NCBI GenBank assembly: GCA_900314565.1
Contig: OMVU01000004.1
Span: 1-64,000 of the forward strand
Reading direction: 5' to 3'
Origin: an uncultured Eubacteriales bacterium
Lineage (GTDB): Bacteria > Bacillota > Clostridia > Lachnospirales > Lachnospiraceae
Length of the DNA: 64,000 nucleotides
Of the stretch, positions 149 to 20,570 are shown piece after piece. Within the stretch, counting starts at the first letter, position 1; each line of letters opens with the position of its first letter. Below the pieces are notes generated by a model. The model did not search any database. It worked only from the letters and a program-made list of their open reading frames with translations, and was not told the origin of the DNA. Position numbers and translations under genes: made by a program.

Positions 149-1207
149 TCATCTCCATACTATTGAAATAACTGGGAGCAGTGCCAGAATTGTTGCTAAA
201 ACCATCAGAACCAATTTAACAATTCCTGCAAATCGCACATCAGCAACATTTTTCCCCAAGACAATATCTGTTGCTATATTAAAGAAAGCATTAATAGTCT
301 TATTCACAAAATCAGATCCGAAGACAATGCATAGACCTACTGTTATTGTCGCGGAAACCAGCAACAACTGCGATAGTTGCATCAAGGGTAAATGCCGTGC
401 AGTAATGATTGTAATCGGTCTATGGCAAAGGAAAATCCCCAATGAATTTCTTCCTATCTTCGAAACTAACGGGACTGGTTTGTTCGGTACTATCACAAGC
501 ATTGTAAATATGGCCGCAGAAGAAATTAGAAATGTGGTAATTCGTTCAAACACGTCAATGATGTTATCATATGGATCCATAGTTAGATTATCTACGGTAA
601 ATGCAAATTTGTTATATGCGAGGATACCAACTCCTGTAGCAAGGAGTGCCAATAAGATACCAATAATAAGATGACGTTTATTTTTTAGCAGAACTATTGA
701 ATTGATCATCTCTTTATCAACCGAATACCCTGCCATAAAGAAGGGAGAAAAGGCAATAATCCTAGAAATTGCAAAAGAATTGTCGATAGATGTCCACATG
801 CCACATATAATGGCGGCCAGTACAAGTAGCATCAGGATATGCTTAATTTTCGACAGTCTTTCTGCTATTAGTCTCCATACAATAAGGCACATGATATACC
901 ACATCACATAATATGGTTCAATAGCATTTGGATTTTTATATCCAAAAACTATCATCATTAAACCATTGAACACTAGATAAATGATAAGCAATCGGAGTAG
1001 GGAGTACCCCCCCCTGGCTTGAATTCCTCTGCTAAAATACCCGGAAATGAAAATAAACGCCGGCATATGAAATAGATAGATTCCGATAACAATCGGGTCG
1101 GCAATGGCTTTGTTTTTCAGAATATGAGCAAAAACCACAAGGAGTATTAGCAGTCCCTTCATGTTATCAAAGGCGATTATTCTCTTTCCATCTTGCTTAA
1201 CATCCAT
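149..1207 (-). CDS. Membrane acyltransferase (acyltransferase-3 family), G8-tract gene, in frame
   Basis: This 352-residue polytopic membrane protein resembles the acyltransferase-3 family (OafA / fucose 4-O-acetylase-like), which O-acylates surface glycans. Family signs are the N-terminal FDNMKGLLILLVVFAH segment, the YLFHMPAFIFISGYFSRG block near residue 45, and about ten hydrophobic helices. A run of eight G at 1007-1014 on the coding strand encodes Arg-Gly-Gly near residue 66, just after FSRGIQA. The frame is open across it, so this copy reads ON. The ATG at 1207 has a GAGGAAT ribosome site. It follows the GpsA-TagD gene by 12 bp and is the last gene before the terminator. A paralogue at 8846-9854 has a longer tract and is out of frame. 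The acyl substrate and the sugar acceptor are not known. Confidence 0.88.
   Translation of the reverse strand: MDVKQDGKRIIAFDNMKGLLILLVVFAHILKNKAIADPIVIGIYLFHMPAFIFISGYFSRGIQARGGYSLLRLLIIYLVFNGLMMIVFGYKNPNAIEPYYVMWYIMCLIVWRLIAERLSKIKHILMLLVLAAIICGMWTSIDNSFAISRIIAFSPFFMAGYSVDKEMINSIVLLKNKRHLIIGILLALLATGVGILAYNKFAFTVDNLTMDPYDNIIDVFERITTFLISSAAIFTMLVIVPNKPVPLVSKIGRNSLGIFLCHRPITIITARHLPLMQLSQLLLVSATITVGLCIVFGSDFVNKTINAFFNIATDIVLGKNVADVRFAGIVKLVLMVLATILALLPVISIVWR
1007..1014 (-). repeat. Poly-G tract (G8TAC), contingency site in acyltransferase
   Basis: Eight consecutive C on the plus strand, read as G8 followed by TAC on the coding strand. The acyltransferase frame is intact at this length; any change not divisible by three would truncate the protein near residue 70. 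The same Gn-TAC pattern recurs in three other genes of this locus. Confidence 0.85.
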
Positions 1208-1219
1208 TACACTTATTCC

Positions 1220-1669
1220 TCAGCGCGGGTCTGTATTAATATCCTCATGGCTTGTTTGACTCTGTTCTACGCTTGCCGCATCATATAAGTCATGTTTTAT
1301 CTGAGAGCTTGATATCTCAGGTGTCCTGGGGAGATACACGACCTCGACGCCTTCCTCTTTCAAGAAGTCAAACTTTCCCTTCCAATCATTTCCCATCACA
1401 AAAGTATCAATATGATACTCATGCATATCAGATCTCTTCTGATTCCAGCTTTCCTCCGGAATAACTAAATCAACATACCTGACGGCCTCCACAAGGGCTT
1501 TTCGTTGTTCATAAGTGAAATAGCATTTTTTATGCTTTTCATTCCAGTTGAACTCATCTGATGAAATGGCCACAATCAGATAATCTCCAAGGGCTTTTGC
1601 CCTACGTAATAAATTGATATGGCCATAATGGAGCAGATCAAACGTCCCATATGTTATAACTCTTTTCAT
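1220..1669 (-). CDS. tagD: Glycerol-3-phosphate cytidylyltransferase domain with its own start
   Basis: This is the C-terminal part of the fusion. It starts MKRVITYGTFDLLHYGH, the HxGH-type nucleotidyltransferase signature, and contains the RTPEISSSQIK motif typical of TagD. It makes CDP-glycerol from CTP and glycerol-3-phosphate. A strong AAAGGAGAT site lies 7 nt before the ATG at 1669, inside the linker between the two domains. The cytidylyltransferase could therefore be translated independently of the interrupted GpsA half. At 149 residues it carries a tail of about 20 residues beyond the usual ~130. Product identity is firm; separate initiation is inferred from the ribosome site. Confidence 0.75.
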   Translation of the reverse strand: MKRVITYGTFDLLHYGHINLLRRAKALGDYLIVAISSDEFNWNEKHKKCYFTYEQRKALVEAVRYVDLVIPEESWNQKRSDMHEYHIDTFVMGNDWKGKFDFLKEEGVEVVYLPRTPEISSSQIKHDLYDAASVEQSQTSHEDINTDPR

Positions 1670-2746
1670 ACTCTGATCTCCTTTTGTTCTTAAGGTTGCA
1701 TTTTTCATTACAGCGGATTCATAGTTCAGGTCGAGAATAGGTTTTGATAGCTCTGTTTTACTGTCTCTCCCCATCAGTTCTTTTACCGCTTCCCTCGGAT
1801 CTGCTCCGTGATTGATGACTGCATCTACAGTGGTCATAATCGGCATTTCAACGTCGTATTTCTCCGCTAAGGTCATGGCAGCCGGAATTGCGTTTATACC
1901 CTCGACAACCATTCCGACAGTTTTTATCGCTTCCTGCGGATCATATCCTTGACCGATGAAATAACCACACCGATTATTTCGGCTGTGCTTACTGGTAGCA
2001 GTCACGATGAGATCGCCCATGCCAGCCAAGCCTCTGAAGGTCTCAGGCAAACACCCAATCTTAACACCCAGCCTTTCAATCTCCGCCAATCCTCTCGTTA
2101 TAAGGGCAGCTTTTGTATTATCCCCATAACCGAGACCAACAGAAATGCCTGATGCGAGAGCGATAATGTTCTTTAACGCACCACAAAGTTCCACACCCTT
2201 CACATCCGTATTTGTATATACACGCATAACGGGATTTGTGAAGATAGACTGAACCTGCTCCGCAACCGTTATATCTTCATATGCGGCGACTATTGTGGTC
2301 GGAAGATCTTTTGCCACTTCCTCTGCATGAGTAGGCCCTGACAATGCTACAACCTTTGCTTGTGGAATTTCTGACGAGATCACCTCGCTCATCGTCATGA
2401 GAGTGTCTGGCTCAATGCCCTTTGCCACGTCAACGATAATCTGACCATCTACGACATAGGATGAAGCTTGGTGTGCTGTTGACCGAACAAAGACTGATGG
2501 AACAGCGAAGAGAAGAATATCCTTATCCTCACACATCTCTTCGATGCTTTCGTTGAACTCAATTTCTTCCGGAATCTCCATATTCGGCAGGTTCTTTTGC
2601 CTTCTGGTCTTCCTTAACTCCTCTAATACCTTTGGCAATGCAGACCAAACTGTAACCTCATGTCCTGATAATGATAACATTCTGGCTAATGCCATTCCCT
2701 ATGTACCGGCTCCAGCAATACCGATCCTAGTCATATTATTTTCCAT
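1220..2746 (-). pseudogene. GpsA-TagD fusion: glycerol-3-P dehydrogenase plus cytidylyltransferase, interrupted by TAG
   Basis: The N-terminal ~330 residues match NAD(P)-dependent glycerol-3-phosphate dehydrogenase (GpsA). The C-terminal ~149 match glycerol-3-phosphate cytidylyltransferase (TagD). Together they would turn dihydroxyacetone phosphate into glycerol-3-phosphate and then CDP-glycerol, the donor for the TagF-like enzyme upstream. Reading from ATG 2746 gives IGIAGAGT-stop-GMALARM. TAG at 2699-2701 replaces codon 16, which is normally Trp in the GAGxWG nucleotide-binding loop. The next ATG (2695) would yield a 491-residue protein without the dinucleotide loop, so the dehydrogenase is probably inactive unless the stop is read through. 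Downstream GpsA features are intact: GPTHAEEVA, the catalytic-Lys segment VELCGALKN, and GLAGMGD. The change is explained by one G-to-A mutation. Recent decay, readthrough or sequence error cannot be told apart here. Confidence 0.85.
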
Positions 2747-2761
2747 CGATTCTACAAATAC

Positions 2762-4270: not shown

Positions 4271-4287
4271 TGCTCGATTCCTTTCTA

Positions 4288-5223
4288 TTAAACATTCATT
4301 CTAGGTAAAAGCAGCTTGCCCCCCAATATTTGATCAGCTTCTGATGTAATGTCTGTATCAAAGCCAGAATTCGAGAAAAAAGTCATTTCTCCGAAATACA
4401 CGCTTCCGTTAATTTCATATAAATCAACTCTTAACTGAATTAAGTCTCTTGCAAGAGTCTCTGCAATTTCGATCATTAAATCAAAATTTTGAGGCTTAAG
4501 CTTTTGAAGAGCTTCTAAATCAACATCGTCATAAGGACAGTAGGGAATATAGTTCCAATATCTGTCAAAATAATGAAACCTGACTCCTCTTTCCGTATTC
4601 CGCCCTTCGGCAACGAATACATTATCGAACTTTCCGTTGAAGCATTGAAGCTTGTAGTCATTTAAACCACCCGAAGCATTGCCGCTGTTGTCGCCGGATT
4701 GTTCCATGTACTTTTCTCCAATGATCCGCGGATGGATATCCTTATATGGCCACTCTCGAAATTTGTAATAATAATTACGCTTTAGAGCCTCTGATAATTG
4801 TTTTTTCGCGGAATTGATATCCAACTTATTTTTATCCCGACAGATGATCACGCCGTGACTGTCATGAGTGCACTTAAGCACAAATTGATCCGGAAGTTTT
4901 TCGAAGTCAATTTCATCTACGCTGTTCCATGTCCCAATCGTGGGAATAATATACTGTTCACCAATAATCTGACTTACGAGCTTTTTTGCCTCAATCTTAT
5001 CGACCATCGAAGTATAGATTGGTTTTCGATCATGCAACTTAAGCCACTGGAGCTTTTCGTTAAATGTTTTTGGATTATCCAGATCTAACTCATATCCCAT
5101 TTCAATTTCAAATTTTCTTTTGAGAAACTGATCATCTGGCATAGAGTCAGTCCATCCATGAGCAGCATTGACTTTGAACCTATAATCACGGTCAGTCAGA
5201 TACATCCCAATTTGTTTAATCAT
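4288..5223 (-). CDS. TupA-like ATP-grasp glycopolymer enzyme
   Basis: Resembles the TupA-like ATP-grasp family, found in teichuronopeptide and capsule loci and thought to form an amide or ester link on a surface glycopolymer. Family signs are NPKTFNEKLQWLKLHDR near the N-terminus, FVLKCTHDSHGVIICRDK in the ATP-binding region, and DLYEINGSVYFGEMTFFSNSGFD near the C-terminus with metal/ATP ligands. I prefer ATG 5223: it forms a 4-bp ATGA overlap with the upstream gene and has a GAAGGG site. An in-frame ATG at 5271 would lie inside that gene. The preferred start gives 311 residues, usual for the family. Translational coupling to the upstream ATP-grasp gene is likely. The substrate is unknown. 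Confidence 0.85.
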   Translation of the reverse strand: MIKQIGMYLTDRDYRFKVNAAHGWTDSMPDDQFLKRKFEIEMGYELDLDNPKTFNEKLQWLKLHDRKPIYTSMVDKIEAKKLVSQIIGEQYIIPTIGTWNSVDEIDFEKLPDQFVLKCTHDSHGVIICRDKNKLDINSAKKQLSEALKRNYYYKFREWPYKDIHPRIIGEKYMEQSGDNSGNASGGLNDYKLQCFNGKFDNVFVAEGRNTERGVRFHYFDRYWNYIPYCPYDDVDLEALQKLKPQNFDLMIEIAETLARDLIQLRVDLYEINGSVYFGEMTFFSNSGFDTDITSEADQILGGKLLLPRMNV

Positions 5224-6341
5224 ATCTTTTCCCTTCTTGATAAAGGAGAGTCCTTCTTTTTCTTTATCCATCGTAATATTTCAGGTGTCTTGTCCCCAAA
5301 AGGTCCGCATCCCCATGCCATCTGGAATAACCATATTCCGCCTGAAATAGCATTTGCCTCAATCAAGACTGGTTCTTCATCCTTATTGATTGTAAAATCC
5401 CAGTTCACCACACCAATTTGTGGGATCGCCGAATGAACTTTTATGGCAGATTCGATAACCTTATCTATGTTATGTATCTTGTATCCACTAAACTTGATAT
5501 GCGTATTAGGATGTTCATTATAATATTGCTTAAACTCAGTGAATGCTGTATCATGTAATGTCCCGTCATTATCAATTGCAATGAACATACCGCCCGCATG
5601 GGCATTGTCCAACACCGAATCTCCTTGACCAATTCTCATAACAAGAGGAACTATTTCGATCCCCCCATTCCATACATACGTCATCACACGAAATGTATTT
5701 ACACTTTCCGGGTGCAAAGCTCGAATACTATCGCTGCAAATGATTTTTTCCTGGATAACATAATCTGAACCGAGTGACGCAATCTTGTCTCCAAAGTTTG
5801 AGTCACGAGCATTAAGTAGAGTGCACCCTTTCCCACTTCCACTTTCTATCGTAGGTTTTGCAAACCAAACGGTATCTTTCAGCAGGGAAGGTATGTCATC
5901 CTTCGATATCGATCTATAACAACTATCCCTTATTATACCATTGGCCGACGATACTACAACCCGCGGCGTCCTTATACCAATTCCATTTGCTATCATTGAT
6001 AAGACGTTTTTATCCTCAAGCACATCGCAATATTTCCGATTTTGATTCATGAAATATTCAAATTCTGGAATATAAAGCAATTCTGGAAAATAAGTGGGAT
6101 CAAACTTGCCAGTGAAAGCTGTATAGTGTTGATGCCAGATATAGGGAATCTTTTCTCCATAGTTCTTTATATACAGATCATCAATCTGTCTCTTTTGTTT
6201 ATCCGACAATTCAATGGAACTATATATTGCTATTCTACGCGGATCCTTAAACTTATTGATCTCATAAGTTCTCCGCGCCTTTATTAAATGCTTGTCCTGA
6301 TAATCTCTTATTCCGTTTTTTATGGATGTCTTAACGCTCAT
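5220..6341 (-). CDS. Sugar-transfer-associated ATP-grasp protein
   Basis: Resembles the sugar-transfer-associated ATP-grasp family. Visible signs are ATP-binding VWFAKPTIESGSGKG, YVIQEKI, VNTFRVMTYV, and a C-terminal INKDEEPVLIEANAISGG with metal-binding acidic residues. Such enzymes join a carboxylate to an amine or hydroxyl, using ATP, during surface-glycan assembly. ATG 6341 (MSVKTS) is preferred because GGTGAG lies just before it; an upstream in-frame ATG at 6380 is buried in the TagF-like gene. It is about 373 residues. It is paralogous to the interrupted gene at 7550-8635. It overlaps its upstream neighbour by none and its downstream neighbour by 4 bp, so co-translation is expected. Acceptor and donor are not known. 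Confidence 0.82.
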   Translation of the reverse strand: MSVKTSIKNGIRDYQDKHLIKARRTYEINKFKDPRRIAIYSSIELSDKQKRQIDDLYIKNYGEKIPYIWHQHYTAFTGKFDPTYFPELLYIPEFEYFMNQNRKYCDVLEDKNVLSMIANGIGIRTPRVVVSSANGIIRDSCYRSISKDDIPSLLKDTVWFAKPTIESGSGKGCTLLNARDSNFGDKIASLGSDYVIQEKIICSDSIRALHPESVNTFRVMTYVWNGGIEIVPLVMRIGQGDSVLDNAHAGGMFIAIDNDGTLHDTAFTEFKQYYNEHPNTHIKFSGYKIHNIDKVIESAIKVHSAIPQIGVVNWDFTINKDEEPVLIEANAISGGIWLFQMAWGCGPFGDKTPEILRWIKKKKDSPLSRREKI

Positions 6342-6354
6342 ATTCTCACCATTT

Positions 6355-7527
6355 TCAGTCTTCTCTGCTGAAGAATGCATTAAATCTCTCTATTATTAAA
6401 TTCACTACAGTTCTTGTTGAATCCCCAGACTCTGTAACTCCGTAGTAATTCATAGCCTGATCTCTTCCTAATAGCTTCTTCTGATTTAAAGACTCAAGCA
6501 TCAAACTATGTAGTTCATTCATATTCTTCGCAATCGGGAGTCCTACTTCATCTAAGGAAACACTGAGTTGCCGACTGCTTTTTGTGTAGTCGTCCAAGTC
6601 AAATAGAGCCAAAACCATCGGACGATCCATCAGCATATAATCTCCCGACACCGAAGAATAATCGGTGATCACCGCATCGGATATTAGGAGCAAATCAGCC
6701 ATGTCTGGATAATCTGAAACATCCAGCACCCGACCATTCGACCCTATTCCTTTTCCGAGGCTATGTGCCCTATATAGTCCTTTCCATGTATCTCCTGTCT
6801 CGGAGCAAAGCCATTCCACCAGAGCTTCTATATCTACGACCTCACAAGATTCATGCAATTTATCGTCTCGGAAAGTCGGTGCGTACATTATCAACTTGCT
6901 GTTTGTATCGACATTAAGCTTTTTTTTGATAATATCTGCTTTCTCCAGAGAAACATTTAATAACTGGTCATTCCTAGGCATTCCAACTCTGAGTATTTCC
7001 CCATTGTATCGGAACGCCGAACGGTAGACTCGTTCACCGTAATCTGATGCAGCAAGACAAATATCTGTCACAGCATCGTCTCTTACAACATTAGCTCTGT
7101 ATGTATCATTCCAGTCATCTAAATCATCATATAGAACCTTTTTGAAAGAACGATCTCCATGCCAAGTCTGTATAAAATACTGGCCCTTACGCTTCGCAAT
7201 ATTAGGGCGCATTTCATTATTGGCGATGAAACAGAAGGACGTTGCTAAAGACTGATAATATTCTTTCGAGTTATATTTTACCCTTTTTACATAAGATGGA
7301 ATAATTCCGTACGGATCATCATTTGAATTCAACGCCCATATAATATCAATCTCTGGATGCAATTCATGAAGCATCTCCGATATATTCCGCGGACTGTCGG
7401 CATACTGTCTTCCTCTGAAACTAGCGCAAAGGATTTGCGGTCGGATAGGATGTGTCACTCCATAAATCTTTGTGTATGCCACAGCTTTTGCGTTGTGTAA
7501 ACGCATTTTTATATGTCGATCCTTCAT
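6355..7527 (-). CDS. CDP-glycerol:poly(glycerophosphate) glycerophosphotransferase family (TagF/TagB-like)
   Basis: A 390-residue protein of the CDP-glycerol glycerophosphotransferase family, which transfers glycerol-phosphate from CDP-glycerol to a lipid-linked glycan at the inner membrane face. The diagnostic catalytic segment is QTWHGDRSFKK near residue 126; further signs are IMYAPTFRDD near 235, and YRAHS and ITDYSSVSGDY further on. It is shorter than TagF and lacks a large N-terminal domain, so it resembles single-unit or short-chain transferases. ATG 7527 has an AAAGGGG site. The TagD domain in the same operon supplies its donor, so glycerol-phosphate decoration or linkage is a reasonable inference. 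Confidence 0.88.
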   Translation of the reverse strand: MKDRHIKMRLHNAKAVAYTKIYGVTHPIRPQILCASFRGRQYADSPRNISEMLHELHPEIDIIWALNSNDDPYGIIPSYVKRVKYNSKEYYQSLATSFCFIANNEMRPNIAKRKGQYFIQTWHGDRSFKKVLYDDLDDWNDTYRANVVRDDAVTDICLAASDYGERVYRSAFRYNGEILRVGMPRNDQLLNVSLEKADIIKKKLNVDTNSKLIMYAPTFRDDKLHESCEVVDIEALVEWLCSETGDTWKGLYRAHSLGKGIGSNGRVLDVSDYPDMADLLLISDAVITDYSSVSGDYMLMDRPMVLALFDLDDYTKSSRQLSVSLDEVGLPIAKNMNELHSLMLESLNQKKLLGRDQAMNYYGVTESGDSTRTVVNLIIERFNAFFSRED

Positions 7528-7549
7528 TGTTTTGCCCCTTTGTTACTTT

Positions 7550-8635
7550 CTATTTTCCAAAGACTTCATTTAACATTTCTTCTGTTCGATCCCCGAAGAG
7601 AGGTCCATTAGTCATCTGATGGAAATCCAGCTGGCCATGATGCATGTTCAGTTCAATTAGCAAAGGCTCTGCATCTTCATTGATACAGATATCCCACGAG
7701 ATCAAACGATGATGAGGGAACATCAACGCCATATTCGAAACCATTATCTCCGCATCGTGCACTCCAGGGATTTGAATGCCTTCAAATTGGATGCCTGTGG
7801 TAGGATGTTTATCAAATCGTTCCCCGGTTGTACGAAAAGCATATTTCTTCAACATATTGTCATCGTCAATTCCAACAACAATTCCGCCACTACTTGCGTT
7901 ATCCACATAAGCATCGCCAATCCCCACACGAAGAACCTTTGACAGAACAGAAACTACTCCATCTTTATCCAACCAGGTCATGATTCTTACCGTATTAACT
8001 GCGTTCGGATTAATTCTTGAAAGCACATCGTGCTGTATAACCACCCGCTCTTGGATAACGATATCGTTTTTCTTCTGTTTATTACCGAATGATTCGAAGT
8101 TTTCGAATCATACTTCATCTCTCTCAAGTTTAATTACTCCATGACCTCCACATGAGTTATTCGCTGCTTTGAGGAATACGCACTGTGCCTCCTTGCACTT
8201 TTCTACTACTATGGCAGAGCTAACTATTTTCCAATCTATTATCCAAAATCCATTAATCCGTTTTGCGATTACCTTAGGCTGCTTCGCATCTGGAAAATAG
8301 ACATCGTAGTAGCACTTATTATCAATAAACTTAAAAGCATGTCGATCGTTATAGAAAGGATCTAACACTGTGTAGTAAAGGTCATCCGGCAGATACCTGA
8401 CGTCAAATGTACCATTAACTTTAGAGTAAAATATCTGGAACACCTCATCTGTCTTGGTATATCTATCCCAGAACTCTCTTATCTTTCTATGTTCCTCAGG
8501 AGAGGCTGTACCCCCCCCCACAAGATTATGAAGCTTGTTGTGGAAATCTTTTCTTTCCATGCGAACGCGGTGAATATCAATCACCTTATCTATAGCTCGT
8601 TCTGCGTGAATGATCATTCCTCCGAAAGTTGGCAT
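7550..8635 (-). pseudogene. Sugar-transfer-associated ATP-grasp gene with G9 tract, interrupted by in-frame TGA
   Basis: Two open segments (8635-8108 and 8107-7550) lie in the same frame and together make one ATP-grasp protein of about 361 residues, paralogous to the gene at 5220-6341. The N half ends ...VIKLERDEV, then TGA at 8108-8110. The frame then continues FENFESFGNKQKKNDIVIQE and on through INPNAVNTVRIMTW to the metal-binding INEDAEPLLIELNMHHG. A single nonsense codon is the only break. A run of nine G at 8511-8519 encodes Gly-Gly-Gly near residue 40, and the frame is open across it at this length. The start ATG at 8635 has a GGAGG site. A GTG at 8044 could restart only the C half. Possible states are a fresh pseudogene, readthrough or sequence error. 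Confidence 0.82.
8511..8519 (-). repeat. Poly-G tract (G9TAC) in ATP-grasp gene
   Basis: Nine consecutive C on the plus strand, read as G9 then TAC on the coding strand. At nine the N-terminal ATP-grasp frame continues correctly from HNLVGGG into TASPEEHRKI, a region that aligns with the paralogue at 5220-6341. Loss or gain of one G would truncate the protein after about 40 residues. Confidence 0.82.
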
Positions 8636-9854: not shown

Positions 9855-9872
9855 AGTGTATGCACCCTTTTA

Positions 9873-11468: not shown

Positions 11469-12669
11469 AGAGAATGGTAATATAATCAGTAAAAAGAACT
11501 CTTATCCCCCATCCCCAAAAATCATATCCCCGCACTTGCCAATATTGTATGAACAGGCCAGCAGGTCCCAGGATCAGGCTAAGCGACGTTAGAGCTCTTA
11601 TTAATAGAGGAAGTTTTCTATAGCTGCTGAGTAGGGGAATTATCATCATCCCTATCACGATATAAAATGCAGCAGCAAATCGCCAATAATTAGGAACTGC
11701 AAAAACATTACTTGCTAATGTCATCATGGCGATCATTCCGGCAAATGCATAGAACCTCAAATCATCCTTAAATAATGATTTATTATAACGAATTCCGTAA
11801 TAGATTAAGATCAAAGCCAGAACAACTCCGAACATCATCAGCATTCGATTTATAATAAATGTATGTGATGTCGTAGCTTTAATTGCGTAAGCTGAGGTGG
11901 TATTGGTTAAGTACCGATACAATTTCCTTATTATTGTTTGAATCGAATTTCCTAAGTTGCCACCCACTGAAAAGATATAGCTATAATCGTATAAAAGATA
12001 TATAAGAGATGAGAATACCAACGGTATGATTAGAACAATCTCAAATACTTTCTTTGAAAAACGGCTGAGTATTCTGAAAACTATCAGGATAAAGCAGGAA
12101 AGATGCATTAAACTTCCAGCCACATACAGCAGCCAGACCCATAACGGCCTTTTGTCTTTTACTATATCGAAATACGCAGCCAGAATAATTAAGGATAATC
12201 CAAATACATTTCGCACATTATTAATAATCGAGACATATGGAAGCATCATGAACTGAAACAGCAGTATAACCCCTATATATTTTCTCGATCCATATCTGTC
12301 AGCCACATCACAGGTTATATAGCTTGAAACACCATATACCACAGCGGTAGTAATGGCTGGAACTAAATGAATTGCATGAAGATGTCCGCACAACCAAAAC
12401 AACAAATCTCTTGCATACAAAATATCATTATTATATGAAAAAGCTTCTGTGAGTGCCATCTTTCCATATAACTCTATCTCTGGAAGATACCGGACGAGAT
12501 CGACATTCGAGCCCTGTGAAGGTATATAACAATAAGCGCCCACAAATACTGTATATATATATAATGGCAAAAACATTCTCCATTTTGAAGGATTTTTCCA
12601 TAATCCTATAATGGAAATAAGGAGTGCCAACGGCGTAAGTATGCAAAATGCTAATCCTGGTAATAACAC
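11440..12669 (-). CDS. EpsG-family / Wzy-like polysaccharide polymerase
   Basis: A 409-residue membrane protein with about ten helices. The large early loop with GSNVDLVRYLP and the SIINNVRNVFGLSLIILA segment are features of the EpsG/Wzy family, whose conserved Asn-x-Arg motif is present here. It would join lipid-linked repeat units outside the membrane. It lies directly before the flippase and overlaps the flippase's earliest possible start. The family identity is inferred from topology and motifs; such polymerases are poorly conserved in sequence. Confidence 0.75.
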   Translation of the reverse strand: MLLPGLAFCILTPLALLISIIGLWKNPSKWRMFLPLYIYTVFVGAYCYIPSQGSNVDLVRYLPEIELYGKMALTEAFSYNNDILYARDLLFWLCGHLHAIHLVPAITTAVVYGVSSYITCDVADRYGSRKYIGVILLFQFMMLPYVSIINNVRNVFGLSLIILAAYFDIVKDKRPLWVWLLYVAGSLMHLSCFILIVFRILSRFSKKVFEIVLIIPLVFSSLIYLLYDYSYIFSVGGNLGNSIQTIIRKLYRYLTNTTSAYAIKATTSHTFIINRMLMMFGVVLALILIYYGIRYNKSLFKDDLRFYAFAGMIAMMTLASNVFAVPNYWRFAAAFYIVIGMMIIPLLSSYRKLPLLIRALTSLSLILGPAGLFIQYWQVRGYDFWGWGIRVLFTDYITILFDVCKGIFA

Positions 12670-12925: not shown

Positions 12926-14104
12926 TTATCTCTGGCATTCCATATAAGCTTTATAGAATTCCATACTATTGATAGATTCCAAGCCTTTATGTCGGAAGAA
13001 CTCTAAAACCTTTTCTTTTTTCAACACCGGTCCACAAATAATCTGCTCATAATCTACAGAAGGAAGTGAATTGATTTCACAAATCTTCATTCCGTTTTCG
13101 GTTATAATGATGTCAATGCCAAGGTAGTCCAAAGATGAAATATGCTGACAAAGGACATCAATCTTTGACCTTACATATTCCCAATTCGGCAAAACAAACC
13201 CTTTCCAGACTACTTTAGTGTCCGGATGACAGTTCATAAGCCAATTGCCATCTTTCGTGAATTTCCGGTATTGAATGGCATTGTCATAAAGCGCGCCAGA
13301 TTCAAAATCAAATCCAACGCCAATTCCCCCAGAGGACAGGTTACTTGCACCTTCTCCGACATCAGTACCAAAACGCGCATAGGATACGGCGCATGACCAC
13401 GTTGCCGAAGCATACTTATCTTCTGTTGAGTCTTTACACATAATCACCCTTAAAGTACACTCACTACCTGGCCAAACTCTTGCCAAGTCATGATGCTGAT
13501 GAGCGTATTCTGTAATGATGTAATTCCGCATTTTATCGCGGATTTCTTCAAAGCGGGCCATATCGATTTTTTTATTGTTCTCATAGATGACATTGTCCCG
13601 CAATTCTAGTTTGATAAAGCCAAGACCGCCAGAAGTACCGCTGTTTGGTTTCATCGCAAGGATTCTCTTCTTCTTCAGTAGATTCCAAAGAAAATCTTGA
13701 TTTCTCGGAATATCCAAAGGGCAGTTCATTAAATACGTCCATCGTCCACCGCAGAGGTCATTTTCTACGTAGACATAGTAGTCTGGCATTAGTTCATGGC
13801 AACTCTTATTATCCAGAACATATTTCAGCGTGAGCTTATCCAGCCATTTCAGGAAATGGTTGTTTAAGGGATGCATCATTGAATAATGATAATCCGGCAA
13901 ATAATCTTTGTAATTATCCTCCGTAAGACCCAAAAGTTCAATACGACCGGGGTAGAATCCCCTTTCCAACGCCCATTGTTTATCAGTTTCAGATACAGTA
14001 AAGTTTTCTTCGTCTTCCTTAAGTCTTTTTACAAACGAAATCGCCCACTTTTGATCCATCCCAAGTTCTCGCATTTTTTCGAGAAGCAGAGTATAATCCG
14101 TCAT
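12926..14104 (-). CDS. ATP-grasp protein, glycan-associated
   Basis: About 392 residues of the ATP-grasp fold. ATP-binding elements are ILAMKPNSGTSGGLGFIKL and the IITEYAHQHHDLARVWP segment. The C-terminal metal-binding part is DIIITENGMKICEINSLPSVD. ATG 14104 (MTDYTLLLEKMREL) is chosen because GGGAGG lies just before it; an ATG at 14134 has no such site. It is distinct from the other two sugar-transfer ATP-grasp proteins and the TupA-like one, so the locus has four members of this superfamily. Its neighbours are the Stealth phosphotransferases. It presumably ligates a carboxylate-bearing group during glycopolymer decoration; the substrate is unknown. Confidence 0.75.
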   Translation of the reverse strand: MTDYTLLLEKMRELGMDQKWAISFVKRLKEDEENFTVSETDKQWALERGFYPGRIELLGLTEDNYKDYLPDYHYSMMHPLNNHFLKWLDKLTLKYVLDNKSCHELMPDYYVYVENDLCGGRWTYLMNCPLDIPRNQDFLWNLLKKKRILAMKPNSGTSGGLGFIKLELRDNVIYENNKKIDMARFEEIRDKMRNYIITEYAHQHHDLARVWPGSECTLRVIMCKDSTEDKYASATWSCAVSYARFGTDVGEGASNLSSGGIGVGFDFESGALYDNAIQYRKFTKDGNWLMNCHPDTKVVWKGFVLPNWEYVRSKIDVLCQHISSLDYLGIDIIITENGMKICEINSLPSVDYEQIICGPVLKKEKVLEFFRHKGLESINSMEFYKAYMECQR

Positions 14105-14147
14105 AATGTCCTCCCATTTATCTAACGGCAGCAATTCAAATAGTCAT

Positions 14148-15170
14148 TTATTTCTCAAAGCCGGATTTTTTGGGAAACGCCTCTTCAAAACAAACCAAGA
14201 TTTTCTTCTTCACGCCTTCAAAGTCCGGGCCTGAATATTCATCATTGATGCATACCATCTTGTGCTTTCTAAGTCGGATGGCTTCATACATCCTTTCATT
14301 CTTACTTTCATCGTTGTTAATGGAATAATACTGACCAGCTTTGGGAGACCGAGGATAAAACTCTCCCTCTGCGATCTGCCAGAAGGACATCATTCTGCTG
14401 CTGACGTCCGAACTGTCACGGAACTTATGGGTACATGCACGATCAAGTAGGAACTCTTCCTTCTCCCATGCTTCTTCAAACGTTTTCTTTTTATACGAAT
14501 AAGGAAGATGAAGATTTTTGAAGCCTGTAAAGTCTCCCCACGGCAGGAGAAGTAATGTCCTTCCCATGGCACTTCCGTAGCATGGAGCAAACCATTTTGA
14601 AAGGTTTTTCTTAATGGTTGCTTTCTTATTGAAGTTCCGATTTATCGGAACGAGATTCATAATATTGGATGTGTTGTAGTTTTCTGGCTTTAGAAAATTA
14701 CCGTTCTCATCAACGCCTCTAACATAGGACGCCTGGAGTATTGCCGTATCGCAAGGTAGTCCTTTTTTGAAAAAGTCTTCTATAGTAACCGGCTGAAAAA
14801 GGAACATATCATCATTAAAATATACAAAGTTCTCTGAAAGTCCCGGAATTCTATGAAGATTTAATTCAATCGGCCTACATGAAAAAGTTGGCAGGTACTT
14901 TTCAGGGATGTAATCCTTATGGTTCACTATATTCAGTTTGGGATGATCTGTGTTTAACCATGATGGCAGGTGCCCGCAGGTTACAAAATGAATCTTATTG
15001 ACCCACGGCGCACACAATTCAATTCCGCGAAACCAGTATTGTAAAAACTCCCAGTCTCGATATCTCTTTGCACGCTTGTCTCCTGTTGTCTGCCCGGAAT
15101 ATTTAGCCTTTTCCTTTTGCCACTCCGGATCATTTCCATCAACCCAGGTAATGATAAAATCTATATTCAT
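14148..15170 (-). CDS. Stealth-family sugar-phosphate phosphotransferase
   Basis: About 340 residues of the Stealth family, which transfers sugar-1-phosphate (or a similar phosphoryl unit) from a nucleotide sugar to a glycan, forming phosphodiester links. Conserved blocks seen in order are IDFIITWVDGNDPEWQ at the N-terminus, RYRDWEFLQYWFRGIE near 40, NFVYFNDDMFLFQPV near 115, and FQIAEGEFYPRSPK-like residues late. ATG 15170 (MNIDF) has GGAGG seven bases before it and is preferred over ATG 15188. It is a close paralogue of the next gene upstream, suggesting duplication and two different phosphodiester links. Confidence 0.88.
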   Translation of the reverse strand: MNIDFIITWVDGNDPEWQKEKAKYSGQTTGDKRAKRYRDWEFLQYWFRGIELCAPWVNKIHFVTCGHLPSWLNTDHPKLNIVNHKDYIPEKYLPTFSCRPIELNLHRIPGLSENFVYFNDDMFLFQPVTIEDFFKKGLPCDTAILQASYVRGVDENGNFLKPENYNTSNIMNLVPINRNFNKKATIKKNLSKWFAPCYGSAMGRTLLLLPWGDFTGFKNLHLPYSYKKKTFEEAWEKEEFLLDRACTHKFRDSSDVSSRMMSFWQIAEGEFYPRSPKAGQYYSINNDESKNERMYEAIRLRKHKMVCINDEYSGPDFEGVKKKILVCFEEAFPKKSGFEK

Positions 15171-15184
15171 CCGTGCCTCCAACT

Positions 15185-16177
15185 TCATTTCTCGAAACCA
15201 GACGGCTCTGAAAGAATATCTCTCAAAGCTGCATTGATCTCGTCCCTTGCTTCCTCAAATGTATAGTCACCAGCCATGTCGTTAATGCACACGGTTTTCC
15301 CTTTGTGTTCTCTTATATAAGAGCATAGCGCACCATTATTGCGCTTTGCTTCAAAATAACGGCCAAAGCTAATTCTTCTTGGCTCAAAATTACCGCTGCA
15401 TAGATTCCAATAGCGCATAAGCCAATGGGATACATCATTCGTTCCTCTAAAGCGATTCTTACAGGATGTATCCAGGGCCACACTCTCTTTTTCCCAGATT
15501 TCACGAAATGTGCTTTTCAGATGAGACTGGGCAATATGCGGATTTCTAAAGCCCGTAAAATAGCTGAACGGAGAGAAGTACAGGGTAATAAGATTTTGCA
15601 TCCCGTATTTTGAATTATAGATTTTCCCTCTGATTCTCTTATGCACTTCTCTTTTCTTAAAATGATCATTAATTATGTCTGTAATAACAACCTTCGTGTG
15701 TGTAATACCAGCTCTGCCTACAGGTGCGATCAGGTTCTCCACAAACGAATCACATGGCAGTCCGTTATGAAAGAAGTCCTCCGGTTTTACAGAATCTATA
15801 AGGAAGAAATCATCATTAAATAGTACAAAGGTTTCTGACAGTTCATCTAAGCGAAATAGATTTGTTTCTATCGTATCAGAGTTAAATGTAGGGAGGTACT
15901 GTTCAGGAATATAATCAGTGTGTTTGACGATTTTAAGTTTCGGGTGTTCTGTATTCAGCCATTTGGGTAAGTGTCCCCATGTGATAAAATAAATGTTGTT
16001 TACCCATGGAGCATACTTCTCCACGCCACGAAACCAGAAGTGAAGATTATCCCAATCCCGGAAGCGGTTATCACTGGTGCTAAAATCAACTCTTTTCGGG
16101 CTATATTGTTTTTTTTGCTCCAGCCATGCAGGGTCATTTCCATCAACCCAAAGCAGCACAAAATCAATTTTATCCAT
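15185..16177 (-). CDS. Stealth-family sugar-phosphate phosphotransferase
   Basis: A 330-residue Stealth-family protein. Blocks in order are IDFVLLWVDGNDPAW near the start, NRFRDWDNLHFWFRGVEKY near 42, FVLFNDDFFLIDSVKPEDFF near 116, and FRGTNDVSHWLMRYW near 245, with the family Asp-Asp pair in FNDDFF. A GGAAGG site precedes ATG 16177. Together with the downstream paralogue it implies a polymer or side chain with hexose- or other sugar-phosphate links. Both lie between the acyl module and the ATP-grasp genes on the same strand with minimal spacing. Confidence 0.9.
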   Translation of the reverse strand: MDKIDFVLLWVDGNDPAWLEQKKQYSPKRVDFSTSDNRFRDWDNLHFWFRGVEKYAPWVNNIYFITWGHLPKWLNTEHPKLKIVKHTDYIPEQYLPTFNSDTIETNLFRLDELSETFVLFNDDFFLIDSVKPEDFFHNGLPCDSFVENLIAPVGRAGITHTKVVITDIINDHFKKREVHKRIRGKIYNSKYGMQNLITLYFSPFSYFTGFRNPHIAQSHLKSTFREIWEKESVALDTSCKNRFRGTNDVSHWLMRYWNLCSGNFEPRRISFGRYFEAKRNNGALCSYIREHKGKTVCINDMAGDYTFEEARDEINAALRDILSEPSGFEK

Positions 16178-16207
16178 GGACTACGTTCCTTCCCGACTTT
16201 ATCCAAC

Positions 16208-16846
16208 TTACTCTTTATTCGCAAAAACTCTCGCCGGATTGCCAAATACTCTTGTATTCTCCGGTACTTCCCTTATCACAACGCTCCCGATACCGACATA
16301 CGCCCAGGCACCGATTTCCATGCCAACTGCAATACAAGCATGATCACCAATAAAGCAGCCTTCGTGCAGTTTCGTTCCTCCAGTGATACCGCAACTGGAG
16401 CTGACGGTCACATAGTCCTCGAGCTCCGCATCGTGCCCAAGGATAGTGGATTGCAGCGTTACGAAATCTCCAATCTTGCAGCCAGTAGCAATCTTCGCAT
16501 TTGGGTATGCTACCAGCCCTACACCCAACTCATATTCAGAATAAACATGTACGCTGGGATGGATGATAGAAGCAAACTGTGCTCCTTTTTCAATCATTGC
16601 TGGGCCAATAAGTTTCTTCACAGCCGGGCTTGCGATACCCATCGCGTATTTCACGTTCTCTCTTGGCTCATGATCCTTAATTGTCCCGATAATCTGATAC
16701 TTGCAGGGAAAACCATCCAACGCATTCGGATTGTCATCCAGGAACCCGAGGATGTTCCATGTGGGCTCAACCTTGTTGATATCTTCAATCCAGTTGGCAA
16801 CTTCCCGACCGCAGCCAGCAGCGCCAATGATAATAATGTCTGTCAT
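16208..16846 (-). CDS. PglD/NeuD-family sugar acyltransferase
   Basis: A 212-residue protein with an N-terminal Rossmann-like domain (IIIIGAAGCGREVANWIED) and a C-terminal left-handed beta-helix of hexapeptide repeats. It ends in GIGSVVIREVPENTRVFGNPARVF. This is the architecture of PglD and NeuD acetyltransferases, which N- or O-acetylate UDP-4-amino sugars or sialic acid. With the PglF-like and PglE-like genes in the same operon it could complete bacillosamine synthesis. It is instead adjacent to the AMP ligase/ACP module, so it may use an acyl-ACP rather than acetyl-CoA. The start ATG 16846 has a GGGGTGAG site and lies 6 bp from the ligase stop. Confidence 0.85.
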   Translation of the reverse strand: MTDIIIIGAAGCGREVANWIEDINKVEPTWNILGFLDDNPNALDGFPCKYQIIGTIKDHEPRENVKYAMGIASPAVKKLIGPAMIEKGAQFASIIHPSVHVYSEYELGVGLVAYPNAKIATGCKIGDFVTLQSTILGHDAELEDYVTVSSSCGITGGTKLHEGCFIGDHACIAVGMEIGAWAYVGIGSVVIREVPENTRVFGNPARVFANKE

Positions 16847-16851
16847 CTATC

Positions 16852-18261
16852 TCACCCCGCGTACTTCGCATCCATGTCTTTATATCTGATCTTCCCACTG
16901 TCGTTGCGGAGAATTTCGTTCACTACAAACACCTTGAATAGTGACTTAAATAGATTTGTCTTTGCGGCTATGAACTCCAGCACTTCTGCTTTCTTGCTCT
17001 CATCTGTGATGTACACATTCATCCTCTGGTCTGTTCCAGAACAAGCGCACTCGATGCCAAACTCCTGCTGGATCAGCCGTTCACTCTGGTCGAGGCTCAC
17101 ACGGTAACTGAGAAGCTTTAGGAAGCGGGATAAGCGGCCTGTCACGAAATAGCAACCATCTTCATCTCTTCTCGCCAGATCGCCGGTATGGTATTCTCCA
17201 TTGAACTCGTCATCTTTCATTAGATCGTCCTTGCAGACGGCATAACCCATCGTGACGTTAGGACCCTTATAGCACATCTCACCTTCCGCCACAGGATCTG
17301 TCAACTCATTACCATTCTCATCGATCAGGAATAACTCTCCCTCCGGGATTGCCCGCCCGATACTGCCAGTCTTTGTAAGTGCAAGTTCTGCCGGGAGGCA
17401 GGCCATGCGAGCTGAGGTCTCGGTAGTACCGAAGGAAGCAATAAACCGCTTTCCTGTCCGCTGAGCATACTCAGCCATCTGGATAAATCTTGCGTCAGTC
17501 AGTTTCCCGCCGCCCTCAGAGAAGGTTGTGAGATACGGAAGATCCATCCGCTCAAAATGTAAACGGAAGAAAAGATCATAGCTAAACGGCACACCAGTGA
17601 AATTAGTTGCCTTCTGCGTCTTGATGTAATCCCAAAACTCACCGCTCATGATGTTGTATGTAGTGAGCAGAACTGTCGCGCCAACATAGAGGTGCGTATT
17701 GATAACGTTCAGCCCCATTGTGTACTGCATGCCAAGATCACAGAGAGGACGTTCCTTATCACTCCAGCCAAAGGCTATTGCCACATTCTTTGCATTCGCT
17801 TCCAAATTGCCCTTCTTGTAGCGGACAAGTTTCGGACTTCCGGTAGAACCGGATGTGGTCATAAGGAACTGGAGCTTGTCATGTACAGGATATATTTCAT
17901 TTCCGGTTTTTAAGAGCGTGTAGCCGTATGTGTTATAAACCGCCTCATACCCATAGCTTTCCGCTTCTTCCTCCGGAACCCAAAGATAAGCAGGTGTATA
18001 GGTTGCGATAAGCGTTTTCAAAAGGTCTTTATCGATCTTATCACTCAGATTCAAAGGAACAGCTTCGCGTTCAATAAACCCAAGGTATCCGATCATTGAA
18101 CCTACAGTATTTTTGCAAAGAATAAAGATAACAGAACGGGGGGCAACTTCTTTCCCAACTTCTACCATCTTCTCCGCAAGTTCACCATAGGTAATGTTAT
18201 TTCCCTCGTTATCCACGAGAGCCACAGATATTTTCTCTTGCTGATCGATACTTAAAAACAT
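16852..18261 (-). CDS. AMP-forming acyl/aminoacyl ligase (ANL superfamily)
   Basis: A 469-residue adenylate-forming enzyme. The P-loop-like TTSGSTGSPKLVRYKKG near residue 135, ASFGTTETSARM near 280, YHTGDLARRDEDGCYFVTGR near 365 and the C-terminal catalytic Lys in NDSGKIRYKD are all present. It would activate a carboxylic or amino acid as its adenylate and load it on the phosphopantetheine arm of the small ACP encoded three genes upstream, as DltA does for D-alanine. It is somewhat short for a CoA ligase, which fits carrier-protein loading. The acid used cannot be told from the sequence. It sits between the SDR gene and the PglD-like gene. Confidence 0.85.
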   Translation of the reverse strand: MFLSIDQQEKISVALVDNEGNNITYGELAEKMVEVGKEVAPRSVIFILCKNTVGSMIGYLGFIEREAVPLNLSDKIDKDLLKTLIATYTPAYLWVPEEEAESYGYEAVYNTYGYTLLKTGNEIYPVHDKLQFLMTTSGSTGSPKLVRYKKGNLEANAKNVAIAFGWSDKERPLCDLGMQYTMGLNVINTHLYVGATVLLTTYNIMSGEFWDYIKTQKATNFTGVPFSYDLFFRLHFERMDLPYLTTFSEGGGKLTDARFIQMAEYAQRTGKRFIASFGTTETSARMACLPAELALTKTGSIGRAIPEGELFLIDENGNELTDPVAEGEMCYKGPNVTMGYAVCKDDLMKDDEFNGEYHTGDLARRDEDGCYFVTGRLSRFLKLLSYRVSLDQSERLIQQEFGIECACSGTDQRMNVYITDESKKAEVLEFIAAKTNLFKSLFKVFVVNEILRNDSGKIRYKDMDAKYAG

Positions 18262-18344
18262 CGTTTCCCTGCTCCTTCTCAGCTTCTCACGTCATCGTCT
18301 CCGCACATATGTTATGTGCATGTGTTAGAGCCGGATAGCATTGA

Positions 18345-19091
18345 TTACATTATTGTGCAACCATCAACCGGGATGACCTGTCCAGATATGTAACCAGCAT
18401 AGTCTGACGCAAGCAACAAGCATGCTCCTGCAATATCAGTCGGCTGTGCGATTCTTCCCATACAGATGTTATTAATTCTGCCTTGAAGTTTCTCCAAATC
18501 AGCCTGCTCCATCATCTCTGTTTGAGTCAGACCGGGAGCAATGGAGTTGACCCGAATACCCTTCGGACCTAACTCCTTAGCAGCTGATTTCGTTAGTGCG
18601 ATCACCGCGCCTTTCGTAGCAGAGTACACAAGCTGCCCGGTATTACCTCTCAATCCAACCATTGAACTGATGTTAATGATACTGCCGCCATTTTCATTGC
18701 GGCTCATAATCCGGCTTACTGTCTGGAGCATTTCGATGGTGCCATAGACATTTACATTGAACATCTTCTCCATGTTGTCGCGGGAAATCATGCCGATCAG
18801 CTCGTTAAATTCTACTCCAGCATTGTTCACAAGCACGTCGATGTGCCCAAATTGCCTCTTGATCGCCATTACATTCTGGCGGACAGCAGTGGAATCAGTG
18901 ATGTCAAAGTAATAGGGGTGGAGACGATCTCGGTGTTCACTATTTGCGATCCATTCATCTGCAGATCCCGGCCTCGTTCCGTTGACAATCACATCAGCAC
19001 CTTCAGCGGCATACAGTTTCGCTATCGCCTTGCCGATGCCTCTCGCAGAGCCCGTAACAATACAGATCTTATCTTTCAGCAATTCTCCCAT
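18345..19091 (-). CDS. Short-chain dehydrogenase/reductase (FabG-like)
   Basis: A 248-residue classical SDR with the nucleotide-binding GSARGIGKAIA at residue 14, NNAG near 87, the catalytic Ser in INISSMVG, and YSATKGA with catalytic Tyr and Lys near 150. FabG-like enzymes reduce 3-oxoacyl-ACP to 3-hydroxyacyl-ACP with NAD(P)H. Its place next to an ACP, a ligase and an MBL-fold hydrolase suggests it reduces a keto group on the carrier-bound acyl unit. It overlaps the end of the hydrolase gene by 23 bp. An 83-nt gap holding a small GCACAT/ATGTGC hairpin separates it from the ligase. Confidence 0.85.
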   Translation of the reverse strand: MGELLKDKICIVTGSARGIGKAIAKLYAAEGADVIVNGTRPGSADEWIANSEHRDRLHPYYFDITDSTAVRQNVMAIKRQFGHIDVLVNNAGVEFNELIGMISRDNMEKMFNVNVYGTIEMLQTVSRIMSRNENGGSIINISSMVGLRGNTGQLVYSATKGAVIALTKSAAKELGPKGIRVNSIAPGLTQTEMMEQADLEKLQGRINNICMGRIAQPTDIAGACLLLASDYAGYISGQVIPVDGCTIM

Positions 19092-19776
19092 TCGATCTCC
19101 ACTCTTTCATCTGGAATACTTCACCGTGTCCAGGAAATACAACAGTTTCATCGGGAATCCTTATTATAATCGGTAGTGTAATGCTATTGAATGCAGCTTC
19201 GTCTCCACCATCAAACTTCAGAAAGGTCTCTTCCTGAAGGATTGAATCTCCAGAGAAGATTCCTACGTCATCTATGTGAATTAACATGCTTCCCGGACTA
19301 TGACCGGGAGTGTGACGGAATGTGATCTCATGTCCATTCCACATAAGCTTCAGCTTATCCTTAAAAACTATCTCCGCAGGTGCGCACGAATATGTTCTGT
19401 TCCGTGCTTCCGCGTTCTGATAGCTCTCGCCAAAACGCATGGTAGCGTATATGTGATACTGTTTTGCCTTGTTTCGTTTCGGATCACCTATCGCCTCATT
19501 GCAGTATTCTTGTGCGACAACCTGAACATTCGGAAAAGCACTTCTAATCGCATTCAAGCCCCATAAGTGATCACAATGCTCGTGCGTGAGGACAAGGTAA
19601 TCGGGAGAAAGATTTCTTTTCTTCAGTTCCTTGGCAACATCCTTAGAACAGGCATCTATTAATATGGCGTGCCCATCTTCTTCTATGACGTAGGTATTAG
19701 CTCTTTCAACACCATATGACAGTTGAAGAATTGTTGGTCTCTTGCCTATGATAGAAATTCCATTCAGCTTTGGCAT
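19069..19776 (-). CDS. Metallo-beta-lactamase-fold hydrolase
   Basis: A 235-residue MBL-fold protein. The metal-binding THEHCDHLWG near residue 61, FRHTPGHSPGSMLIH near 157, IFSGDSI and VFPGHGEV near 215 give a full set of zinc ligands. The family includes glyoxalase II-like thioesterases, so it may release or edit the acyl group on the neighbouring ACP. Its ATG overlaps the ACP stop (TAATG), implying tight translational coupling. The function is inferred from position; lactonase or other hydrolase roles are possible. Confidence 0.82.
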   Translation of the reverse strand: MPKLNGISIIGKRPTILQLSYGVERANTYVIEEDGHAILIDACSKDVAKELKKRNLSPDYLVLTHEHCDHLWGLNAIRSAFPNVQVVAQEYCNEAIGDPKRNKAKQYHIYATMRFGESYQNAEARNRTYSCAPAEIVFKDKLKLMWNGHEITFRHTPGHSPGSMLIHIDDVGIFSGDSILQEETFLKFDGGDEAAFNSITLPIIIRIPDETVVFPGHGEVFQMKEWRSNGRIAER

Positions 19777-20015
19777 TAAAACTCAACCCCATAACGGGCG
19801 AGAGTTTTCATGCCGTTCACATATCCACCGAAATGTAGAATATCGTCTGTCTCAAACATGATATCAAAGGCATCCTCCAACTCACTAATGAGTGTGAGGT
19901 GCGTCAGAGAATCCCATTTCTCTACATCTTTAAAATTAAAGGTGTCGTTCAAATCCTTTGCATCCACGTTAAAAATATTCACAAAGATATTCTGATACTT
20001 TTCTTTATTGCTCAT
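19776..20015 (-). CDS. Acyl carrier protein
   Basis: A small acidic carrier protein of about 79 residues beginning MSNKEKYQNIFVNIF. The phosphopantetheine attachment Ser is in KWDSLTHLTLISELEDAF. The ATG at 20015 has a GAGGGAGAA site; longer in-frame extension upstream lies within the acetyltransferase gene. In the ON frame the upstream acetyltransferase stops two bases before this ATG, so the state of the G tract may also alter ACP translation by coupling. It is the likely carrier for the ligase, SDR and hydrolase of this module and is separate from the housekeeping fatty-acid ACP. Confidence 0.88.
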   Translation of the reverse strand: MSNKEKYQNIFVNIFNVDAKDLNDTFNFKDVEKWDSLTHLTLISELEDAFDIMFETDDILHFGGYVNGMKTLARYGVEF

Positions 20016-20016
20016 A

Positions 20017-20570
20017 TCATTCTCCCTCTTCAAATTTCTTCCAAACCGCATTGACTGTCTCATCAGACAGTCCGCCTTTATTTCGGCTAATTCTGATCTT
20101 TGACGCATTTCTTCTCTTCTCGATCAGATCATCCAGCGAGCATATATACTTCGCTGGTACCCCCCCCCATATACGCCATTTCCTGGTATGGATTTATTTA
20201 CCAGGCTTCCGGCGGCAATCACGGTATTTGAGCCAATCATCACATTGGGGAGTATCGTGGAATTGGAGCCGATAAAAACATTATTCTTGATATCGATGCA
20301 CCCGAGGTTCTCTTGAAACCCGCCGCCTTCTACAGAATTGTTCAGCATCCGGTGAATCACATCATGGGGTATGAGTAGAACATCTGAAGCGATCCAGACA
20401 TTATCTCCAATTGATATGAGCTTAGGGTAGAGCGGGATCTTACGAAACATAACCATGCACTTATCACCCATATGATAAAAAATGTTATGCTTCTTGATAT
20501 ACCTTGCTCTACCCTGCGCAGAGAATGTCAGATACATTCCTATAGTGTGGCGAACTCTATACCAATTCAC
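20017..20570 (-). CDS. Hexapeptide-repeat acetyltransferase, phase-OFF by G9 tract
   Basis: A serine-acetyltransferase-like left-handed beta-helix protein: IGDNVWIASDVLLIPHDVIH, then NNVFIGSNSTILPNVMIGSN and AAGSLVNKSIPGNGVYG. As sequenced, nine G at 20160-20168 send the frame into a short false tail ending at 20124. With seven or ten G the frame instead reads VYGG(G)VPAKYICSLDDLIE, the standard GVPAK ending of this family, and runs about 50 more residues to a TGA at 20017, just before the ACP start. The gene is therefore OFF (C-terminally altered). The best start is GTG 20570, which has GGAGG six bases before it. ON length is about 183 residues. Probable role: O-acetylation of the glycan. 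Confidence 0.85.
20160..20168 (-). repeat. Poly-G tract (G9TAC), OFF-state switch
   Basis: Nine C on the plus strand, G9 then TAC on the coding strand. It lies exactly before the conserved GVPAK motif of the acetyltransferase. Seven or ten G restore the motif and the downstream reading frame; nine does not. Confidence 0.88.

Follow-up and report, generated by a model that had tools for sequence, protein, structure and literature searches.

The window analysed here was the first 64,000 bases of an 82,403-base contig (OMVU01000004.1) from the draft genome of an uncultured Lachnospiraceae bacterium (4.22 Mb in 191 contigs). It contained a gene locus for a putative surface polymer in which four genes for decoration enzymes each held a tract of eight or nine guanines (G8 or G9). 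We considered slipped-strand phase variation of the polymer decorations to be the best account of these poly-G tracts, with a probability of roughly three in four, the tracts acting as predicted switches. According to this model, the product of the locus would be a phosphodiester-type surface glycopolymer, as suggested by the Stealth transferases and the CDP-glycerol transferase, and the four tract genes would add acyl or acetyl groups and an amide-linked residue to presumed substrates on it. Slipped-strand mispairing at replication would cause the G8 and G9 tracts to gain or lose one G, and each such change would shift the downstream part of the gene into or out of frame. Each decoration would then be switched heritably, and probably reversibly, in single cells. 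If the tracts do switch, members of a large gut family would edit the decoration of their surface polymers cell by cell, and this would matter for resistance to phages, for targeting by antibodies and for differences between strains.

Four poly-G tracts in one locus

The window contained exactly four G or C runs of at least 8 bases, and in all of them the G was on the minus strand, which was also the coding strand. The longest G/C run in the remainder of the window was 6. Thus, a preliminary description of this DNA was right that four genes of one locus each carried an 8-9 base G run (one G8 and three G9) and that the rest of the window had nothing comparable. It had also named two membrane acyltransferases, an ATP-grasp enzyme and a hexapeptide acetyltransferase, and the Pfam matches agreed (Acyl_transf_3 twice, ATPgrasp_ST and Hexapep). 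The tracts and their genes were as follows.

149..1207, minus strand: membrane acyltransferase 1 (Pfam Acyl_transf_3, 352 amino acids), open through its tract
1007..1014, minus strand: G8 tract inside acyltransferase 1, TAC next, frame open across it
7550..8635, minus strand: ATP-grasp ligase gene, ATPgrasp_ST match only in the piece downstream of a stop
8511..8519, minus strand: G9 tract inside the ATP-grasp gene, TAC next, frame open across it
8846..9854, minus strand: membrane acyltransferase 2, open reading frames (ORFs) 9573-9854 and 8846-9712, Acyl_transf_3 match in the downstream piece
9748..9756, minus strand: G9 tract at the junction of the acyltransferase 2 halves, which lay in different frames, TAC next
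20124..20588, minus strand: hexapeptide acetyltransferase (Pfam Hexapep)
20160..20168, minus strand: G9 tract close to the 3' end of the hexapeptide gene, TAC next

The whole genome contained only three G9 runs, every one of them in this locus, and only two further G8 runs (1293-1300 on contig C30 and 1688-1695 on contig C32). Under uniform placement, all three G9 runs fell inside 11,658 bp in 44 of 2,000,000 trials, and at least four of the six G8+ runs fell inside 19,162 bp in 6 of 2,000,000 trials. Markov models built on the window alone predicted 0.57 or 1.29 runs, and of 200 simulations with each, 1 and 5, respectively, reached at least four runs. Since this last result was less striking, our argument rested on the genome-wide view. 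Accordingly, the tracts had the first mark of contingency loci, namely a long mononucleotide tract in an ORF or promoter, above chance for the genome. The four genes also belonged, by their Pfam families, to the target classes that face the surface, the host or phages, the surface location itself being a prediction. All four tracts were in peripheral decoration enzymes; the genes of the locus for glycosyltransferases, for the polymerase candidate and for initiation held no G8+ tract.

Another mark of contingency loci is that a change in tract length toggles a gene between an open and a truncated form whose halves are otherwise intact. Judged by frames and homology, three of the four genes were arranged so that this would be expected; the ATP-grasp gene was not, because it had a separate stop. 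Only acyltransferase 1 was open from end to end in the assembly. The halves of acyltransferase 2 formed a single frame in four intact named relatives (L032-L035), whereas here they occupied two frames that joined at the tract. In the hexapeptide gene, similarity to relatives reached the tract and stopped there; the frame continued past the tract into a short tail, while the VPAK end, which we take to be the typical C-terminus of this acetyltransferase family, was in another frame. No disabling change other than the frame at the tract was seen in the two acyltransferases and the hexapeptide gene.

The ATP-grasp gene carried an in-frame TGA at 8108-8110, distant from its tract, and both of its pieces were collinear with an intact homologue (L255). 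This TGA was part of an inverted repeat (window 8080-8125, minus strand) with perfect 9-bp arms and a loop of 3 bases, a structure that template-switch mutation may leave. An in-frame TAG at 2699-2701 was found in the gpsA-tagD fusion gene of the same locus, inside the nucleotide-binding (Rossmann) motif and immediately 5' of the listed start. As the ATP-grasp gene was stopped, the number of predicted switches fell to three. Thus, the sixteen glycan states proposed in the preliminary description were an overstatement, as it had missed the ATP-grasp TGA, and the gpsA-tagD fusion was also stopped. Its other statements on gene state were sound: two tracts were in frame and two out of frame, and the two genes read as OFF would probably be restored by a change in G number, acyltransferase 2 being collinear on both sides of the tract and the hexapeptide gene homologous up to it. 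Its central claim of a phase-variable locus gained support from the unique clustering, the placement in decoration enzymes and the recurrence of such tracts in the family with mixed states (see below); the switching itself stayed a prediction.

A TA flank beside long G-runs

TAC followed all four window tracts and was read in three different frames, which pointed to a constraint on the DNA. The alternative that TAC simply belonged to Gly-Tyr codons was therefore rejected for the window. Among 42 genomes of the genus, G8-TAC occurred seven times in 4 genomes, four of these occurrences being the window tracts, and the reversed pattern occurred once. In a family sample of 397 genomes from 334 genera, 57 had G9-TAC and 18 had the reversed control.

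We then considered G9+ runs of the family independently of their flank. Among the matches listed, TA followed 36 and TAC 10 of the 84 unique runs; the 47 runs with a piece of at least 100 amino acids on the G strand included 22 with TA and 7 with TAC. This set left out four family rows (two of genome G058 and one each of G200 and G160), and the flank listings included only sites whose sixth 3' base was not G. Shorter runs did not have this preference: in all family loci examined, TA came next in 6-10% of runs of 1-7 G, and for seven G in 1 of 17. TA followed three of the six unique G8 runs in the family loci, one of the six being from this genome. The TA counts for G9+ runs over all family loci were biased, since many of these loci had been picked for TAC. 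Within the window, TA was found after 0-6% of runs of 1-5 G and after 2 of 8 runs of six.

The TA preference was not a general feature of G-runs. Among the matches listed, TA was present at 20 of 142 places in the phylum outside the class, compared with 38 of 89 in the family without the genome of the window and three tract-rich genomes (p = 2e-6). TAC alone did not differ significantly between the same sets of listed matches (7 of 142 versus 10 of 89, p = 0.12). Other families of the same class or order had TA at 4 of 7 places among the matches listed, and congeners had it after 10 of 29 tract loci. A strict rule was contradicted by five named genomes, three of them Lachnospiraceae, where TA was found at 0 of 9 G8+ places among the matches listed. 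The three tract-rich family genomes (G437, G148 and G237) had 47, 23 and 13 pattern matches; in G237, TAT followed all 13 tracts among the matches listed, and these were perhaps promoter-spacer tracts.

At many intergenic sites of the family the sequence was G9-TATAAT, G9-TATACT or similar, so that the tract was beside a -10 box. Thus, TA was partly a promoter effect. This did not explain the coding sites, and the proposal that TA was always a -10 box was rejected since it was also carried by nearly half of the sites with a coding piece on the G strand (22/47 among the matches listed). It was tentatively suggested, as an idea that we regard as rather doubtful, that the long G-tracts of the family serve specifically for switching rather than being generic repeats, as an element of the form G(about 8 or more)-TA(C/T), in which either the flexible TpA step bordering the run on its 3' side or a protein recognising it would create, lengthen or protect the tract. 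On that view, the missing TA preference after runs of up to seven G would indicate that the flank marks a switch rather than codon usage, and the phase-variable repertoire of the family would be readable from its sequence. The G(n)-TA preference offers a simple, testable rule for locating such predicted switches, and it leads one to ask which part of DNA metabolism senses the bases beside a homopolymer.

Recurrence of the tracts across the family

The G9-TAC sites examined in the family comprised 72 unique sites in 71 loci. They included one of the 22 sites counted in genome G187 (68% complete), of which 10 were among the matches listed, and left out two other listed sites, the second one of G421 and one of G246. 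A piece of at least 100 amino acids was present on the G strand at 56 sites, and by an automatic rule, which also scored tracts close to a gene end as shifted, 23 of these were open through the tract and 33 shifted frame. When at least 25 codons were required on each side, 21 were open and 27 shifted, of 48.

Glycan or surface-polymer Pfam families accounted for 23 of the 56 G9-TAC pieces versus at most 3 of 26 pieces at non-TA G9+ runs among the matches listed (p = 0.01, uncorrected, with the glycan families chosen after the matches had been seen). The first count became 21 without two listed matches below the Pfam cut-off. The families at G9-TAC among the matches listed were Acyl_transf_3 (six times), Hexapep (five) and glycosyltransferase-type (five), with TupA, CpsB, polysaccharide pyruvyl transferase, MBOAT, UDP-galactopyranose mutase, cytidylyltransferase and FkbM methyltransferase once each. 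The non-TA glycan matches listed were Acyl_transf_3 twice and DUF1919 once, the latter being presumed by us to be a glycan family. These counts drew on 44 of the 56 G9-TAC pieces seen individually and 12 seen through a tally of 25 of 77 families; the non-TA tally listed 25 of 27 families, and among the 26 non-TA pieces, L220 came from a locus chosen for its TAC site.

Several family loci resembled the window genes in the position of the tract when compared by eye. In L088 and L089 the tract was at the same spot as in the window hexapeptide gene, one having the typical end and one lacking it. In L090 and L093 it was in a loop matching that of acyltransferase 1, one gene being open and the other shifted, and in L221 it was between membrane segments one and two, as in acyltransferase 2. 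Since these tracts were in different genomes and had different flanks, the matching positions appeared convergent. Overall, this looked like a poly-G contingency repertoire across the family, with a flank preference at the DNA level. In the genus, G9 was present in 21 of 42 genomes, the one analysed here included.

A number of individual loci were also of interest. In the congener G009, a G9-TAC tract was located in a methyltransferase-like gene (L007, 1501-1509) whose frame, by eye, apparently shifted at the tract, and another congener had a tract locus with a PAPS-reductase-like gene, also by eye (L046). A hexapeptide homologue in genome G171 (L263, 1807-1815) had G9-TAT in the gene upstream of the best-aligned part, a position unlike that in the window gene. 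In L081 and L212, G9-TAC was at or right after the apparent lipobox cysteine of putative lipoproteins, and L081 had an additional G8-TAC copy. The five named genomes mentioned above had been reached as relatives through one window protein; three of them were Lachnospiraceae, one belonged to the Oscillospiraceae and one was a Clostridia record, and most were labelled as gut samples from sheep, goat or horse. In some other genomes (e.g., G019) poly-G artefacts at contig ends were possible; this did not apply to the internal tracts of the window.

Counter-evidence and rival explanations

Several observations weighed against phase variation. No variation in tract length was seen in the single assembly examined. 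G8+ runs were found in none of the 34 loci with acyltransferase 2 homologues, and inspection by eye of the 29 congener tract loci did not show a second polymer-locus cluster. The frame shifted at 16 of 26 non-TA runs, a rate similar to that for the TAC runs (33 of 56), so that the frame state alone did not distinguish the TAC set. Additionally, the TGA in the ATP-grasp gene and the TAG in gpsA-tagD were not reversible by slippage, and both point towards decay or an error of sequencing. The preliminary description had itself named tractless relatives combined with extra damage as evidence against its proposal. Part of this picture was indeed found, in the tractless acyltransferase 2 homologues and the two extra stops; the other part was absent, as no damage apart from the frame at the tract was seen in either acyltransferase or in the hexapeptide gene.

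Decay of the locus was an unlikely explanation, yet the most serious of the rivals. In this case, G-runs would have grown neutrally in unselected genes, and the stops and frameshifts would be pseudogene damage, as the two in-frame stops and the missing tract in the acyltransferase 2 homologues might suggest. However, neutral growth did not agree with the lack of G9 runs elsewhere in the genome, nor with one common TAC flank on all four tracts in three frames. Many other genes of the locus matched their families at near full length, and the same kind of tract was found in the same kinds of genes in other genera. Slippage of RNA polymerase or the ribosome, where the DNA would be stable and each cell would mix full and truncated protein, was considered very improbable. 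Long homopolymers also cause RNA polymerase slippage, and acyltransferase 2 retained an intact downstream frame; however, such slippage left unexplained the differing DNA states between genomes at comparable tracts. We gave the lowest probability to homopolymer errors in sequencing or assembly, by which the true genes would be open. The draft state of the assembly, with its 191 contigs, was in favour of such errors, and the excerpted text of PMC9187656 indicated that deposited G-tract lengths may differ from those in the population. On the other hand, the runs were real regardless of their exact size, errors would not confine them to one locus with one flank, and a genuine spread of tract lengths would appear identical. 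Thus, slipped-strand phase variation was retained as the preferred reading.

Relation to known systems

Poly-G phase variation is known chiefly from studies of Gram-negative pathogens. In Neisseria, poly-G switches occur both in ORFs and in promoter spacers. This combination of coding and promoter-spacer tracts was matched by the G9-TATAAT sites of the family described here, the difference being that the Neisseria species are Gram-negative (PMC5953494, PMC5084427, in part). The poly-G/poly-C capsule and lipooligosaccharide loci of Campylobacter jejuni were similar in having G-runs of about at least 7 bases in glycan-modifying genes, several per genome and many in surface-polymer loci (contingency loci in excerpts of PMC6321876, PMC8355987, PMC4965091, PMC8437040 and PMC6437147). 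However, C. jejuni belongs to another phylum, while here the genome had six G8+ runs, four of them in one locus and with a common TAC flank.

The pilus switches of Bifidobacterium breve UCC2003 were a likeness from a Gram-positive gut commensal, since there a G-tract splits a gene into two ORFs, and the spread of tract lengths was measured within a culture; in contrast to the polymer decoration considered here, those switches concern pilin genes in two pilus loci, and no flank signature appeared in the excerpts (excerpted text of PMC9187656). Phase variation in gut anaerobes is also known from Clostridioides difficile and from gut Bacteroides, whose invertible promoters rely on recombinase-driven DNA inversion and not on tract slippage (PMC11868660, in excerpt). 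The tracts seen in the window gave no reason to invoke such inversion, although no search aimed at it was made. Among the papers listed by our searches of an open-licence library, none dealt with poly-G contingency loci in Lachnospiraceae, as judged from titles and the openings of abstracts.

The surrounding locus for a putative surface polymer

From 149 to 24896, all named genes were on the same strand. In addition to the tract genes, they included the following.

1220..2695, minus strand: fused glycerol-3-phosphate dehydrogenase and cytidylyltransferase (GpsA-TagD), one ORF, likely for CDP-glycerol supply
4288..5271, minus strand: TupA-like ATP-grasp ligase (Pfam), without a tract
5220..6380, minus strand: sugar-transfer associated ATP-grasp protein (Pfam), without a tract
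6355..7527, minus strand: CDP-glycerol glycerophosphotransferase (Pfam Glyphos_transf)
9873..11468, minus strand: 531-amino-acid protein with no Pfam match, flippase-like by eye (a guess)
11440..12669, minus strand: EpsG-like membrane protein, polymerase candidate, marginally above the Pfam cut-off
12926..14134, minus strand: ATPgrasp_ST protein (Pfam), without a tract
14148..16177, minus strand: two Stealth-family proteins (Pfam)
16208..20108, minus strand: PglD-like acetyltransferase, AMP-binding ligase, short-chain dehydrogenase, metallo-beta-lactamase fold protein and acyl-carrier-like protein (Pfam, the last with a match right at the cut-off)
20585..24896, minus strand: initiating sugar transferase (Bac_transf), DegT aminotransferase and Polysacc_synt_2 dehydratase (Pfam)

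This gene set (Bac_transf, two Stealth proteins, Glyphos_transf, EpsG and GpsA-TagD) was that of a surface glycopolymer of the Stealth or CDP-glycerol type, the Stealth-family proteins being, as we assume, sugar-phosphate transferases. We read the locus as one that builds a surface polymer of the phosphodiester type and holds numerous decoration enzymes, both the polymer and its location being predicted from the encoded proteins. A Na+/H+ antiporter gene (2762-4270, minus strand) was located amid the polymer genes and had no obvious connection to them.

Long G-runs elsewhere in the genome

GtrA-type glycosyltransferases and DNA methyltransferases are classic phase-variable classes, and both were represented at the two G8 runs outside the locus. 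A MutS_I domain was found in an open frame of 897 amino acids, and therefore the tracts were not simply due to an absent MutS. The run on contig C30 (L064, 1293-1300) was a G8-TAT located in frame within an open N6/N4 DNA methyltransferase gene. On contig C32 (L065, 1688-1695), the run preceded the start codon (ATG) of a gene for a GT2-GtrA glycosyltransferase by 22 bases, which makes it a possible expression switch.

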